Notes under the pieces: model-generated | Seen by the model: the letters and a program-made list of their open reading frames with translations, nothing else | What the model was told of the DNA's origin: nothing | Databases searched by the model: none | Assembly: GCA_021737785.1 (NCBI GenBank) | Contig: JAIPDI010000001.1 | Coordinates: forward strand, 62,001 to 126,000 | Direction: 5' to 3' | Length of the DNA stretch: 64,000 nucleotides | Origin: Deltaproteobacteria bacterium | GTDB taxonomy: Bacteria > Desulfobacterota > DSM-4660 > Desulfatiglandales > Desulfatiglandaceae | Made by a program: the position numbers and the translations under genes | Shown here: positions 5,240 to 15,647 of the stretch, in pieces | Numbering within the stretch: the first letter of the stretch is position 1 | Layout of the letters: each line of letters begins with the position of its first letter

Positions 5240-5617
5240 ATGGGTCAAGTTTCACGTCAAAAGAACCTCACAGGTAACACCACGATTCGCAGAAGACTCT
5301 TCTTTCTTCTTTATATTCTCCTAATTCCGATATTATCGGTACAACTGCTTATTTATCGAGACCGCATCAAAGATCTCTCTAATTCCGCGCTAAGATCCAA
5401 TATGGAGGTGGCACGCGCGGCCGCCACATCCGCTTATTCATTCGTCCAAAATATTGCCTTATATCAAAGAGGAATCTCGTTTCTCCTCATTTCTCGGAAC
5501 TCTCTGAAAGTCGACCCCATCTCGGGTGGGATCTCTAACCTGATTTTGACGGTCGATGGAAATGTGCGACTGCAATCTATTGTTGGAAGAGTTCAGCCCA
5601 AGTTGCCGGAGAAATGA
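5240..5617 (+). pseudogene. truncated N-terminus of a membrane sensor protein
   Basis: A 125-codon frame with AGGAGG upstream of the ATG. Residues 17-40 form one membrane helix (RRLFFLLYILLIPILSVQLL), and the following DLSNSALRSNMEVARAAATS is the usual first helix of a Cache-type extracytoplasmic sensor in histidine kinases. The frame ends soon after ILTVDGNVRL, before any second membrane helix, HAMP or kinase domain. I read this as the surviving 5-prime end of a sensor kinase gene, cut off at the left border of the restriction-modification scar. It may still be expressed as a single-pass fragment. Confidence 0.6.
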
Positions 5618-5698
5618 TCGAGCTTTGCGGTCTTGGACTTTCAACGAGAAGCCGGGGGCAATTCTCGGGCCAGAACACCCATACCGGGAAGCGGGCAT

Positions 5699-6214
5699 AT
5701 GACGGCGATGAAGGTAAAAGCGCTTTTCAAGGAGTACTTGAAGGAGTTATCCGATACAACCCTGCGGGGGGACGCACGTGAGGAAAGCTTCTATCCGGCC
5801 CTGGCGAACCTGTTTCACGAGGTCTCCGAGACCACCGACCGCTCCCATGTCCCTGTCACCACCCTTCCCAAACCCACGGACGCGGGCAACCCCGACTTCC
5901 GCCTCTAGAACGGCACAGACCGAATCATCGGGTACATCGAGGCCAAAAGGCCCACTGAGGAATGGCTCGATCTCATTGAAGGCACTGACCAGCTTCGGCG
6001 CTACCGGTCCACCTTTCCCAACCTCATCCTGACCAACTTCCTCGAATTCCGCCTGTACCGGAACGGCGAACTGGTGGAAACGATCCTTTGCGGCCGGCCC
6101 GTGGTACTCAACAAACTCGGCATGGCCCCGCCCATGACGGGTATGGGCGTGTCGCCAAGGGCTATGGATATCACAGGATTTTTGAGCTTGACGATGTTCT
6201 GGGTTTTGACATAA
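5699..6214 (+). pseudogene. N-terminal remnant of a Type ISP-like restriction-modification enzyme (DNA N6-methylase type)
   Basis: The frame reads MTAMKVKALFKEYLKELSD, then LPKPTDAGNPDFRL, an in-frame TAG at 5906-5908, then NGTDRIIGYIEAKRPTEEW, FPNLILTNFLEFRLYRNGE and VVLNKLG before similarity is lost near 6120. This is the N-terminal nuclease-like domain of large single-polypeptide restriction-modification proteins; the PD-(D/E)xK-like residues would be D in NPDF and E-x-K in YIEAK. The expected residue at the stop is W (TGG to TAG is one change). The rest of the gene, methylase and target-recognition parts, is missing, but its extreme C-terminus is found at 7737-7928 in the same orientation. 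The gap between holds the AbiE pair. Confidence 0.7.
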
Positions 6215-6337
6215 GGAATAGGATAATACACGCGGATGGGATTTTTTGAATTCGATGCAGCGTTCTCATCAAGGAACCGTAGGCATATCTCACGTTTTCG
6301 ATGTCCGGAATTTTTTGAGTTTTAAAAAGATACACCT

Positions 6338-7033
6338 TTACATCTGCTTTTTGATCAGCCGCTCAAGGTCGGCAAGGAAGGATGTCTGTATCCAGTTCCT
6401 GTAATCCTGATTTAAAAGCTTACCGGTGTCTCGAAGGATTTTCTTGGGATCTGCTGTCTTGACCGTATTCAACAGGGCCTGAAAAAACGCCGAACGATTC
6501 TCAAACGCTCGCGCTATCATGGCTTCATCCAGGGGGTATGCGCCGTTCAGGATAAACCAGGTATCAAAGATGTCTCTGCCGGCCTGGCGGTCAAGATACG
6601 TGAGAAGCTTCTCTGTCATTAAGAAGGAGGGCTCCAGCGTGACGATGGGCACGCCTCTGAGGGGGAGAATGGCGGTTTTGAGTTCCTTTTCCCTGGTGGA
6701 GATTTCAATTTTTATATGGAAATTTCTGTCAGGCCCCCTGAATCGCAGCTCTACAAGGATTGTGTGGTATTTTAGGGCGTTGTCGGTTACCTCCCAGCGT
6801 TTCTTTGTGCAAAGGCTTTTGATGATGCCGATAAGCCCATCGGGCAATCCCCCTGGAAGGACATCATAATCGATATCCTCGGAGTAACGGGGCAGATCAT
6901 AGAAAAGCTTGAGTGCCGTTCCCCCCTTAAAGGCGATTTGTGAACCGGCATCGGATTTGGCCAGGGCCTGAACAACCTCTATGATGACGTTTTCCCGGTA
7001 CTGATTGAAAAAATCCTGTTTATTTGGCTTCAT
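6338..7033 (-). CDS. abiEii: AbiEii/AbiGii-type nucleotidyltransferase toxin
   Basis: A 231-residue cytoplasmic protein of the DUF1814/AbiEii family. FKGGTALKLFYDLPRYSEDIDYD (residues about 35-57) contains the GG-T and the paired acidic residues D53 and D55 of the nucleotidyltransferase fold; FLMTEKLLTYLDRQAGRDIFDTWFIL is the downstream family motif with the conserved R-D-x-x-D. Length matches the family. Known members are the toxin of Type IV toxin-antitoxin abortive-infection systems and modify RNA with nucleotides. Its start overlaps the antitoxin gene by 14 bases, so the two are translationally coupled. All key residues visible appear intact, so it is probably functional. Confidence 0.88.
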   Translation of the reverse strand: MKPNKQDFFNQYRENVIIEVVQALAKSDAGSQIAFKGGTALKLFYDLPRYSEDIDYDVLPGGLPDGLIGIIKSLCTKKRWEVTDNALKYHTILVELRFRGPDRNFHIKIEISTREKELKTAILPLRGVPIVTLEPSFLMTEKLLTYLDRQAGRDIFDTWFILNGAYPLDEAMIARAFENRSAFFQALLNTVKTADPKKILRDTGKLLNQDYRNWIQTSFLADLERLIKKQM

Positions 7034-7616
7034 AGTTCTGCTTCCTGAAAAAACGAACCAGTTCTCTCACCCTGTCAGGATAAAAACGGCCGTAATATGT
7101 GAGAATGTCCGTATCCAGTCTGCCCATATTCACGTCTTCCGGGAGGAGTTCGACAAGCCCTTTTGTCCGCATATATAGACTGTCCAGGAAGGCCTTTTCC
7201 GGATCGGCAATGTAAAAATCTTCGACCTGCACCTGTCCGAAACGCATCAGCGGGGGCGCTATGCGCCGATAAACAAATGTGGTGTTTTCGACTTGATACT
7301 GATAACTCTTAAGTGCCGTGGAAAAAACAATCTGTGGAACCTGAACAATCAGTCCCCAATAATTGAGAGCCGATTCCAATGAAACGACAGATGGTTGGCA
7401 TAGGGCGTTCGCTAAGGAAAACAGGGAGTACTTTCTGTTGATAAGGGCATAGAGATCACGACGAATGCGGGTGAGTACGCCCCGTTTGACAAGTCTGGTC
7501 GTGATCGTCCGGGTGCTCTCCCTTGATGCCTCAAAAATGACCTGGAGGGACGACGTCGTGAAAAACGGAGTGTCGGCACTCAATAATCTGGAGATCTTGT
7601 CGCCTGCCATGGCCAA
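7020..7616 (-). CDS. abiEi: AbiEi-type antitoxin and repressor
   Basis: A 198-residue protein with an N-terminal winged helix (TTSSLQVIFEASRESTRTITTRLVKRGVLTRIRRDLYAL, about 20-58) and a C-terminal AbiEi domain with the family segments SVVSLESALNYWGLI and IADPEKAFLDSLYMR. In characterised systems this protein neutralises AbiEii and represses its own promoter by binding inverted repeats. The start is uncertain: TTG at 7616 is six bases from an AGGA site, ATG at 7610 is twelve. A near-consensus promoter with a perfect inverted repeat lies directly upstream (7629-7681). It is the first gene of the pair. Confidence 0.88.
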   Translation of the reverse strand: MAMAGDKISRLLSADTPFFTTSSLQVIFEASRESTRTITTRLVKRGVLTRIRRDLYALINRKYSLFSLANALCQPSVVSLESALNYWGLIVQVPQIVFSTALKSYQYQVENTTFVYRRIAPPLMRFGQVQVEDFYIADPEKAFLDSLYMRTKGLVELLPEDVNMGRLDTDILTYYGRFYPDRVRELVRFFRKQNYEAK

Positions 7617-7628
7617 TAACGTTCCTGG

Positions 7629-7681
7629 TAAATAAACACTTTTGTTTATTTATTATTATCCTAATTGGGAGTATTTGTCAA
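7629..7681 (-). promoter_or_regulatory. abiE promoter with palindromic operator
   Basis: On the leftward strand, TTGACA (7681-7676) and TAATAA (7658-7653) are separated by exactly 17 bases, a near-consensus sigma-70 promoter. Immediately downstream, covering the expected transcription start, is a perfect 10-base inverted repeat with a 4-base centre, TAAATAAACA (7629-7638) and TGTTTATTTA (7643-7652). Position and symmetry are what an autorepressing AbiEi winged-helix protein would need. Binding itself is inference. Confidence 0.7.
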
Positions 7682-7736
7682 GTCTCTTCGGAGCAGTCTG
7701 TGGTCTCAGAGGAAAAAGGCAGCCACATGCCCATAG

Positions 7737-7928
7737 AACTATCGCATCGACGGATATATGGTCTGCGAGAAATGGCTCAAGAATCGGTGGGAGCGGCGTC
7801 TGGAACTGGACGACATCCGCACCTATTGCCGCATTGTAACTGCCTTGAAACTCACCATCGACATTCAAACAGAAATTACCGCCTTATACCCAGAGATTGA
7901 ACAAGCACGCCTATCGTTGCCCGCCTGA
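7737..7928 (+). pseudogene. C-terminal remnant of the same Type ISP-like restriction-modification enzyme
   Basis: The frame reads NYRIDGYMVCEKWLKNR, LDDIRTYCRIVTALKLT, IDIQTEITALYPEIE and a TGA at 7926-7928. IDGYMVxEKWLKxR and DIRTYCRIVTAL are the closing segment of N6-methylase-type restriction-modification proteins, the same family as the remnant at 5699. A stop (TAG, 7734-7736) lies in frame just upstream, so nothing more of the protein is encoded here. Same strand and order as the 5-prime remnant, about 1.5 kb apart, with AbiE in reverse orientation between them. Confidence 0.65.
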
Positions 7929-8062
7929 GAAAGAGATCTGGCCGCAGGAGACGATCGAATTGGTCCGATTTTATAATTTTATATCCTGATTGGCAAACTG
8001 TCAGAAAATGTAAACACTTTCCTGTTGCCGACCGGCCATAAGAACTGATAACATGTTTATAA

Positions 8063-8296
8063 ATGAAACCCATCACATATACCCGGCACGCAAAAAACAG
8101 AATGCGGTGGCGCAGGATTCCAAAAGCCGATGTGGCATCCGCGATTGCTTCTCCTGATTTTGAGGAGCCTTCGCTCGAGGACCGAAGGAATGTGTGGAAG
8201 AAGTTTTCAGCTAAATATCTAAGGGTTACCTATAAGGAATCAGAAGAAAGCATACTTGTTGTGACCGCAGTCAACAAGACCAAGAGTTGGAGGTGA
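8063..8296 (+). CDS. DUF4258 protein, putative toxin-like
   Basis: A 77-residue protein starting MKPITYTRHAKNRMRWRRIP, the R-H-A-x-x-R-M opening of DUF4258 (a RelE/BrnT-like small fold), with ADVASAIASPD in the middle and ILVVTAVNKTK as the last strand. No good ribosome-binding site is visible. It lies six bases upstream of a DUF2283 gene. Such pairs recur as two-gene units and are suspected toxin-antitoxin modules; no catalytic activity is established from sequence. It sits in the same accessory patch as the AbiE pair. Confidence 0.75.
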   Translation: MKPITYTRHAKNRMRWRRIPKADVASAIASPDFEEPSLEDRRNVWKKFSAKYLRVTYKESEESILVVTAVNKTKSWR

Positions 8297-8302
8297 TCGG
8301 AC

Positions 8303-8521
8303 ATGCGCATTGAGTACGATAGAGAAGCCGACGCACTGTATATCCAGTTACGGGATGTATATGTGGAAGATAACATCGATGTTGAAGAGGGCATTTCCAT
8401 CGATCTGGACAAAGAGCGGCATGTGGTGGGTATCGAAATCCTGGATGCAAGTAAGAAATTGACATCGCGGGATATGGCGAACATAACAATTGAAAATCTC
8501 CCCTTGGAAAAAGCCGCCTGA
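8303..8521 (+). CDS. DUF2283 protein, partner of the DUF4258 gene
   Basis: A 72-residue acidic protein, MRIEYDREADALYIQLRD then DVEEGISIDLDKERHVVGIEILDASK, which is the DUF2283 beta-rich signature almost end to end. It follows the basic DUF4258 protein after six bases, with a GGAGGTGA site inside the end of that gene, so they are co-translated. The small basic/acidic pairing fits a toxin-antitoxin arrangement with this as the antitoxin, which is inference. Confidence 0.8.
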   Translation: MRIEYDREADALYIQLRDVYVEDNIDVEEGISIDLDKERHVVGIEILDASKKLTSRDMANITIENLPLEKAA

Positions 8522-9148: not shown

Positions 9149-9373
9149 ATGGCTCAAATCATGACCACCAAGGAAATGTCAGCTTATTTGAAACTCCATG
9201 AAATCACCATCTGCAAGTATGCTGCTGAGGGTGTAATCCCAGCGATCCGCATCGGGCGAGTCTGGCGCTTTGATAAAGATGAGATCGACAGATGGATCGC
9301 GGAAGGACCCCAACTGAAGGCAAAAAAAACCAAAAAGACAAAAACACGCTCCCGAAAACCAAGGAATAAATAA
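9149..9373 (+). CDS. excisionase/MerR-type helix-turn-helix protein
   Basis: A 74-residue DNA-binding protein: MTTKEMSAYLKLHEITICKY then GVIPAIRIGRVWRFDKDEIDRWI is the complete HTH_17 excisionase-family domain, followed by a very basic tail (KAKKTKKTKTRSRK). GAGGAGG precedes the ATG. Such proteins are found both in mobile elements as excisionases and as stand-alone small regulators. No integrase or attachment site is visible nearby, so I do not call it a true Xis. It closes the accessory patch at its right side. Confidence 0.82.
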   Translation: MAQIMTTKEMSAYLKLHEITICKYAAEGVIPAIRIGRVWRFDKDEIDRWIAEGPQLKAKKTKKTKTRSRKPRNK

Positions 9374-10041: not shown

Positions 10042-11236
10042 TCATTTTTCTTGCTTTTCGGGAAATACCGCTGTCGGTCGTTGGGTGCTGCCAGTAGCGT
10101 TGGGATAATTGGGGTAGACATAGGCCTTCTTCCCGGTCTTGAGGAGATGGTCGGCCTCTTCGTTAGATTCATTAAACCTGGATTTGACCTCGTAAAACCC
10201 GTGCCACCACGCATAATCCGGGACCATCATCATGGCGCCCATGCGGGCCCGCCTCCCCTCGTGGTGCCAGAGTTCGTAGAATTGAAGCTCCAGGTGCTCG
10301 TCGAAATACCGGGTCTTATCCAGGAGTCCCTTACTGTACAGTTCATCCAATTTGACCTTGGCCGGCGTGTAGTAGATCTCATTATATTCTTCCACCGCCT
10401 TGTCGAACCCCGCATAAAAATCATCGACCCATGAGTTCCCGTGGCACTGGAGACACACGGCCTTCATCTTATCCCGTTCCACCTTCCAATCCGTTTTGGC
10501 GGGAAAAAGCCTGGAAGTCCTGGGGACGGACGGTCAAAGGGGCCTGGGTCTCCCAGGACAGTCGTTCGGTCACGTCATGACTGGTGAGGACCTTGCCGCT
10601 CCCGGACATATGGCAGGCCGCGCAGGTGGGTGCCCGATAGTCGACCCCAGGGGTCCAGGTCCCCCCGGCCGCGTCAAAATTATACTCGTTCTTGTAGGCG
10701 TGATACAGGGTTCCGTGCTTGGACTCTTCATAGATCTCGATCTGGGGATGGTCAGGACCCAGATGGCACTGGTCGCAGGCCTCGGGCATGCGGGCCTCGG
10801 CCACGGAGAAGCGGTGCCGGGTATGGCACGAGGTGCAGGACCCTTTGCTGCCGTCCAGGTTGATCCGTCCCACGCCCACGTTGGGCCAGGTCTGGGGATC
10901 GAGGTCGCCCTTATTGTCGATCTTAATCACCGTGCCGTGACAGGTAAAACAACCGGTCTTCCGCTCATTGTCGGAGTTCATGCCGTCTTTCAGCCAGGAA
11001 TCGATCTTCCAGATGATCTCGATGGTGTTGGCGTGCTTGGACCGGTTGTATTGCATCACTTCATCGGGATGGCAGCGGGAGCAATCCCTGGGCGTTGCAA
11101 TGGATGCGACAGGGACCTTGTATTTGGCTTCGCCGTAGGGCAGATCGGACCGGTTGTAATACTGCTCATGTCCCTTGGCCATGTCCTCATCCCCAGGTTG
11201 GACCAGATGACAGTAGGAGTTTTGTGCTGTTGTCAT
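10042..11236 (-). pseudogene. decayed octaheme cytochrome c of the hydroxylamine oxidoreductase (HAO) family
   Basis: Two leftward frames together make one cytochrome. The first (11236-10469) carries CSRCH, CFTCH, CTSCH, CDQCH and CAACH; the second (10482-10042) carries CLQCH and the C-terminal helical region ending near DYAWWHGFYEV. Removing one base from the A5/T5 run at 10504-10508 joins them as QAFPAKTDWKVERDKMKAVC. The N-terminus is also defective: there is no signal peptide, an in-frame TGA lies just upstream of the ATG, and the first two heme motifs expected from the intact paralogue at 11459 are absent. CTSCHTRHRFSVAEA followed by CDQCHLGPDHPQIEIYEESKHG is the HAO-family hallmark. Two independent lesions favour a true pseudogene over a sequencing error. 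Confidence 0.72.
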
Positions 11237-15516: not shown

Positions 15517-15647
15517 GGACCGAAAATGGCAAGTGTGGCTCCAAAATGGAACTAGGGGACCAAGAATACCACCTTAAATCTCTGGACCCTTAAACCCATG
15601 AACGGTTACCATATTTTTTACACATATGGTCCGACGTTCCATAATTC

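Follow-up and report, generated by a model that had tools for sequence, protein, structure and literature searches.

According to Nobusato et al. (2000), as cited in PMC3874152 and PMC4978471, the insertion of restriction-modification (RM) systems duplicates target sequence over lengths of the order of 100 bp. Prophage e14, for its part, produced a 165-bp duplicate of the 3′ end of icd (icdC) and left icd functional (PMC11148124). In relatives of the AbiE toxin-antitoxin (TA) pair, the nucleotidyltransferase AbiEii has been proposed to be a toxin that modifies tRNAs, with AbiEi as its antitoxin (PMC7725324). The window analysed here, a stretch of 64,000 nucleotides from a Deltaproteobacteria bacterium (genome G000), carries an AbiE pair between the two ends of an RM gene (Table 1). 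A sequence-only reading of this DNA had proposed that one defence system replaced another at the same site. The comparisons described below indicate instead that the locus is probably what is left of a small defence cluster, in which AbiE came to lie at the RM 3′ end with duplication of the RM tail and the RM gene was later deleted.

The locus resembles the RM insertions with long target duplications in that direct repeats derived from the neighbouring gene, each of the order of 100 bp, enclose a defence module, and differs from them in that AbiE would be the mobile unit and the RM gene the target, the repeats having diverged to ~80%. Long direct repeats flanking the module, one of them in the target gene, were found in a sister species (genome G002) only, the window having lost the attached copy. 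As in e14 and icd, the insertion lies near a 3′ end and separates a complete gene end from a displaced tail of similar length; unlike e14, no integrase or phage genes lie between the repeats that flank AbiE. Both the components and the process are of known kinds.

Table 1. Features of the RM/AbiE locus, in positions of the window
Feature	Position	Strand	Basis or remark
N-terminal RM remnant, ~146 codons, pseudogene	5699..6136	+	type IIG/ISP-like fused gene; tblastn/blastp homology
In-frame TAG, Trp in close homologues (NPDFRLWNGTD)	5906..5908	+	homologue alignment
27-bp stretch at the putative left deletion joint	6137..6163	+	RM homology ends at 6136, repeat homology starts at 6164
Dispersed repeat reaching the AbiEii stop	6164..6334	+	blastn copies on C4, C39
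AbiEii, predicted nucleotidyltransferase toxin of a type IV TA pair, intact	6338..7033	-	Pfam, PADLOC
AbiEi, predicted antitoxin/repressor, 14-bp overlap with AbiEii	7020..7610	-	PADLOC AbiEi 5.9e-26
Putative abiE promoter region, TTGACA-18-AATAAT and imperfect 26-nt inverted repeat	7613..7681	-	alignable with G002
TAG at conserved Trp codon	7734..7736	+	TGG in attached RM tails; common to the G002 detached tail
Probable detached copy of the RM 3′ end, last ~62 codons	7737..7928	+	homologue C-terminus match

Two Ends of One Restriction-Modification Gene Family

The N fragment matched more than 50 full-length homologues at up to 77% identity and E 1e-72 (tblastn/blastp), residues 4-146 of the homologues aligning at 56-77% identity and the homology starting at 5687 by tblastn. 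The C fragment corresponds to the last ~62 residues of the full-length proteins that the N fragment also matched (69% identity to the closest homologue, best E 8e-27), and window positions 7733-7964 share 85% DNA identity with an RM tail on contig C4 of the same genome. Both fragments lie on the same strand and in the same order, with ~840 codons absent between them. With the N fragment as query, 80 loci were recovered from public genomes, and at more than 50 of these one open frame of ~990-1200 codons held the N match and, at its end, the C match. The two pieces also matched the PADLOC profile REase_MTase_IIG (PDLC03610) at its opposite ends, the N fragment with E 8.9e-18. In agreement with the sequence-only reading, they derive from a single family of fused nuclease-methylases of ~1050 residues.

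The full-length homologues carry an N6-methylase (N6_Mtase) and the Pfam Type_ISP_C specificity domain and match LlaBIII, LlaGI and PDB 7lo5 by sequence. In homologues of 1115 and 1164 aa Pfam returned N6_Mtase and Type_ISP_C only, with no helicase match, and the nuclease domain of the family is predicted from a single putative PD-(D/E)XK motif, PDF...EAK, which lies inside the N fragment. Judged on the homologues, the family seems to have a type IIG-like fused layout, with nuclease, N6-methylase and specificity functions in one chain of ~1000 aa, while the canonical type ISP set (nuclease, SF2 helicase, methyltransferase and specificity in a single chain) appears incomplete. The homologues are thus like the single-chain type IIG and type ISP enzymes (LlaBIII, LlaGI; 7lo5) in combining an N6-methylase with Type_ISP_C and in their N-terminal nuclease-like motif, and unlike type ISP in their length (~1050 aa) and in having no Pfam helicase; the window keeps the two ends only. 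The label "Type ISP-like" given previously is borne out by Type_ISP_C and falters at the helicase, so that "type IIG-like with ISP-type specificity domain" is more exact.

The RM gene in the window has decayed. The N fragment reads as coding through a single TAG, which had been pointed out before and stands in place of a Trp of the closest homologues, and a second in-frame TAG, a detail beyond that reading, opens the C fragment. Searches of the 96-contig assembly of the window's genome found no intact gene of the family, its copies there being the two window fragments and a C-terminal remnant with two TGA stops on contig C4, 6.5 kb upstream of which lies a 25-codon RM scrap. Directly before the RM remnant of the window there is a 125-codon open frame with a membrane segment (5240-5617), possibly the truncated start of a sensor gene.

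A Maintained AbiE Pair between the Two Ends

As the sequence-only reading stated, AbiEii and AbiEi lie between the remnants, on the opposite strand; the pair is intact. AbiEii scored 92.9 bits against Pfam AbiEii PF08843 (E 3.9e-26, cut-off 22.5) and 2e-26 against PADLOC, and its GGT...RYSEDID motif is invariant in three genomes; the score and the motif identify a nucleotidyltransferase with the DxD motif. AbiEi, recognised by PADLOC, falls below the cut-offs for Pfam AbiEi_4 and NCBIfam TAA_AbiEi (E 1.9e-10 for the latter), and lies just upstream of AbiEii, the overlap of the two genes indicating one operon of the AbiE type IV kind. A good promoter match (7681-7652) and the inverted repeat stand ahead of AbiEi, which in AbiE relatives is an autorepressor.

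Compared with its counterpart in the sister genome, AbiEii has 89% amino acid identity, dN 0.065 and dS 0.78 (dN/dS ~0.08), and AbiEi has dN 0.096 and dS 0.64 (dN/dS ~0.15), the differences between the two AbiE loci falling mostly at third codon positions. The pair is under purifying selection and maintained between the ends of a dead RM gene. By family it would be a type IV TA/abortive-infection pair. It is like described type IV AbiE pairs (AbiEi-AbiEii; relatives including MenA-MenT) in its overlapping genes with the antitoxin first, its nucleotidyltransferase toxin, its family HMM matches and its promoter with an inverted repeat, and unlike them in the shortness of AbiEi (196 aa), which goes with the scores below the Pfam and NCBIfam cut-offs, and in that phage defence is predicted only. 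A structure prediction for AbiEii by AlphaFold, with a mean pLDDT of 60 from too shallow an alignment, was left out of the analysis.

The Sister Species Carries a Second RM Tail

Three genomes of the genus were compared, with G002 as the single informative sister species. Its contig C45 begins inside an RM gene of this family, the last 419 codons of which are open to a stop at 1261. The AbiE pair follows 47 bp downstream of the gene end (AbiEii stop at 1309, AbiEi start at 2581), and beyond it lies a second RM tail (2701-2883). This second tail and positions 1064-1246 form direct repeats around AbiE, 183 bp long and 81% identical, the AbiE-containing unit measuring 1.44 kb. Window positions 6342-7869 are colinear with G002 positions 1313-2842 at 82% identity, a stretch that starts at the AbiEii stop and extends across the promoter as far as the tail, so that the right-hand junction represents one event in both species. 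Furthermore, the conserved Trp codon is TAG in the detached tails of both the window and G002 and TGG in the attached tails of G002 and C4. The second tail in G002, the common junction and the common TAG indicate that the C fragment of the window is probably a detached duplicate tail and not an end left by the excision of codons 147-1040; AbiE, on these comparisons, would have sat at the RM 3′ end and never within those codons.

The idea put forward from the sequence alone, namely that AbiE took the place of the middle of one RM gene and that the fragments are its two remaining ends, would account for their common family, strand and order and for there being nothing else between them. It has nevertheless become improbable. 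G002 has the same AbiE/tail junction, with AbiE downstream of a separate, continuous RM 3′ half and its stop, an arrangement that contradicts replacement unless contig C45 is chimeric. The TAG common to the detached tails likewise marks the C fragment as a duplicate, a search for direct repeats between the proposed breakpoints gave nothing beyond chance-length matches, and on C4 the repeat that lies beside the RM head in the window follows an RM stop.

The RM N-terminal part was not found elsewhere in the G002 assembly, and the RM gene of this species is demonstrated for its 3′ half only. The neighbourhoods differ between the species, with mgtE at the side in G002 and a DUF4258/DUF2283 pair in the window, which means that the AbiE unit moved or that its flanks were rearranged. 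A fragment of mgtE with stops lies in the window's genome (contig C35:29479-29847) and has 84% amino acid identity to the mgtE beside the G002 AbiE, which suggests a rearrangement of the neighbourhood between the species.

A Derived Left Junction in the Window

On the left side of the window locus the order is RM N fragment, dispersed repeat and AbiEii, a junction that differs from that of G002 and is derived. By blastn, the repeat (6164-6334) is 79% identical to C4:69926-70049 and 69% identical to C39:51139-51306. The C4 copy lies ~135 bp past the stop codon of another truncated RM remnant of the same genome, so that the repeat in the window looks like 3′ flank and not like gene-internal DNA. 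The left side would fit a deletion with one end inside the RM gene and the other in the 3′ flank; given that the repeat is mobile or multi-copy, this fit counts as no more than supporting evidence. Partial copies of this intergenic dispersed repeat occur on contigs C4, C39, C19, C46 and C27.

A DUF4258/DUF2283 pair lies 2.9 kb beyond the RM tail on C4 and is 92% identical to the pair located directly after the window tail, from which it follows that both loci have a common ancestry. C4 carries a single tail and lacks AbiE, but represents a truncated paralogue in other surroundings; none of the three genomes of the genus showed a true empty site.

Origin of the Detached Tail

A 165-nt tree of the tails, resting on that number of sites, set the outgroups and the attached tail of G002 apart from the detached tails of G002 and the window and the tail of C4, with bootstrap values of 80-82. 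According to this topology, the two G002 tails parted before the species did. The C4 tail is attached to an RM body and yet groups with the detached tails, which needs a recombination or excision step; such a grouping would be expected of a C4 locus that either has always been free of AbiE or has shed it through tail-to-tail recombination.

Three origins of the detached tail, all of which put AbiE 3′ of a complete RM end, can be weighed here. Besides duplication on insertion, circular or otherwise incoming DNA bearing AbiE and a partial RM tail could have recombined into the resident RM gene in the manner of e14, making the attached tail of G002 donor-derived and the detached one native. The detached tail of the window and the C4 tail do share ~36 bp past the stop and cluster in the tree, as expected of native 3′ ends; on the other hand, the identity between G002 and C4 stays steady from the upstream body into the conserved part of the tail, with no drop in the scan, so that no foreign tail is visible, and the 1.44-kb unit holds no integrase. 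This origin is conceivable but doubtful. Unlikely as well is an origin of the detached tail from a second RM gene in tandem, AbiE having landed between or within the two with no duplication on insertion, and the second gene having then disappeared but for its last 60 codons. Tandem whole genes of this family exist at one locus (L075); against such a relic, its 5′ limit beside the AbiE promoter is the same in both species, and any further piece of a second gene was absent. Both proposals are variants of the origin of the tail, and the tandem relic is compatible with the rest of the preferred history.

Among the fetched RM loci, L075 was the only one with a second tail, which is hence not a habit of the RM family. 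RM sequence was found nearby in none of the five AbiEii relatives checked within the taxonomic order, and the relatives with both flanks present (G057, G015) showed no flanking repeat. No further close AbiEii turned up in a 395-genome sample of the phylum, and searches for plasmid copies of the RM-tail/AbiE unit found none.

Proposed History and Its Implications

In the preferred history, the AbiEii/AbiEi genes would have been placed, in an ancestor of the genus, where a fused type IIG/ISP-like RM gene has its 3′ end. As a result, the RM tail would have been complete ahead of AbiE, and its last ~60 codons would have been present a second time, as a non-coding copy, behind it. AbiE would then have stood between direct repeats, with the RM reading frame kept. 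Later, and in the window lineage only, a deletion would have run from about codon 147 through the attached tail, nonsense mutations building up in the RM remains, so as to leave the RM head, the dispersed repeat, the intact AbiE pair and the detached tail. We infer that the tail duplication arose with the arrival of AbiE and that the two events took place in this order. The repeats of G002 would still allow the loss of AbiE by recombination, leaving an intact RM 3′ end, a route that would be gone in the window.

A more general mechanism can be suggested tentatively, in which a TA pair with no integrase inserts at an RM 3′ end, rebuilds the RM tail and displaces the old one, the two systems being stacked unharmed and the pair removable by recombination between the tails. 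If the insertion reading is true, a TA pair joins the RM systems known for insertion with long target duplications, and the locus offers a small, testable case of defence-gene stacking without destruction of the neighbour. More broadly, gene ends flanking another defence system need not mean that a gene was replaced, and a relative can reveal a duplicated tail.

Other Features of the Window and C4 Loci

The DUF4258/DUF2283 small-gene pair of the window (8063-8521) is toxin-antitoxin-like, and its C4 copy is without 69 bp spanning the DUF4258 end. On the reverse strand of the C4 locus (L094), direct repeats of ~31 bp with 90% identity occur at 10533-10563 and 15614-15647, one at the truncated 5′ end of the RM remnant and the other inside a coding gene with a relative in G002, so that a 5-kb segment with RM, DUF3089-like and toxin-antitoxin-like genes is also flanked by direct repeats. 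Further along the window (9149-9373) lies a small HTH_17 (excisionase-like) gene, which has DNA relatives at several places in the genome and in both congeners.
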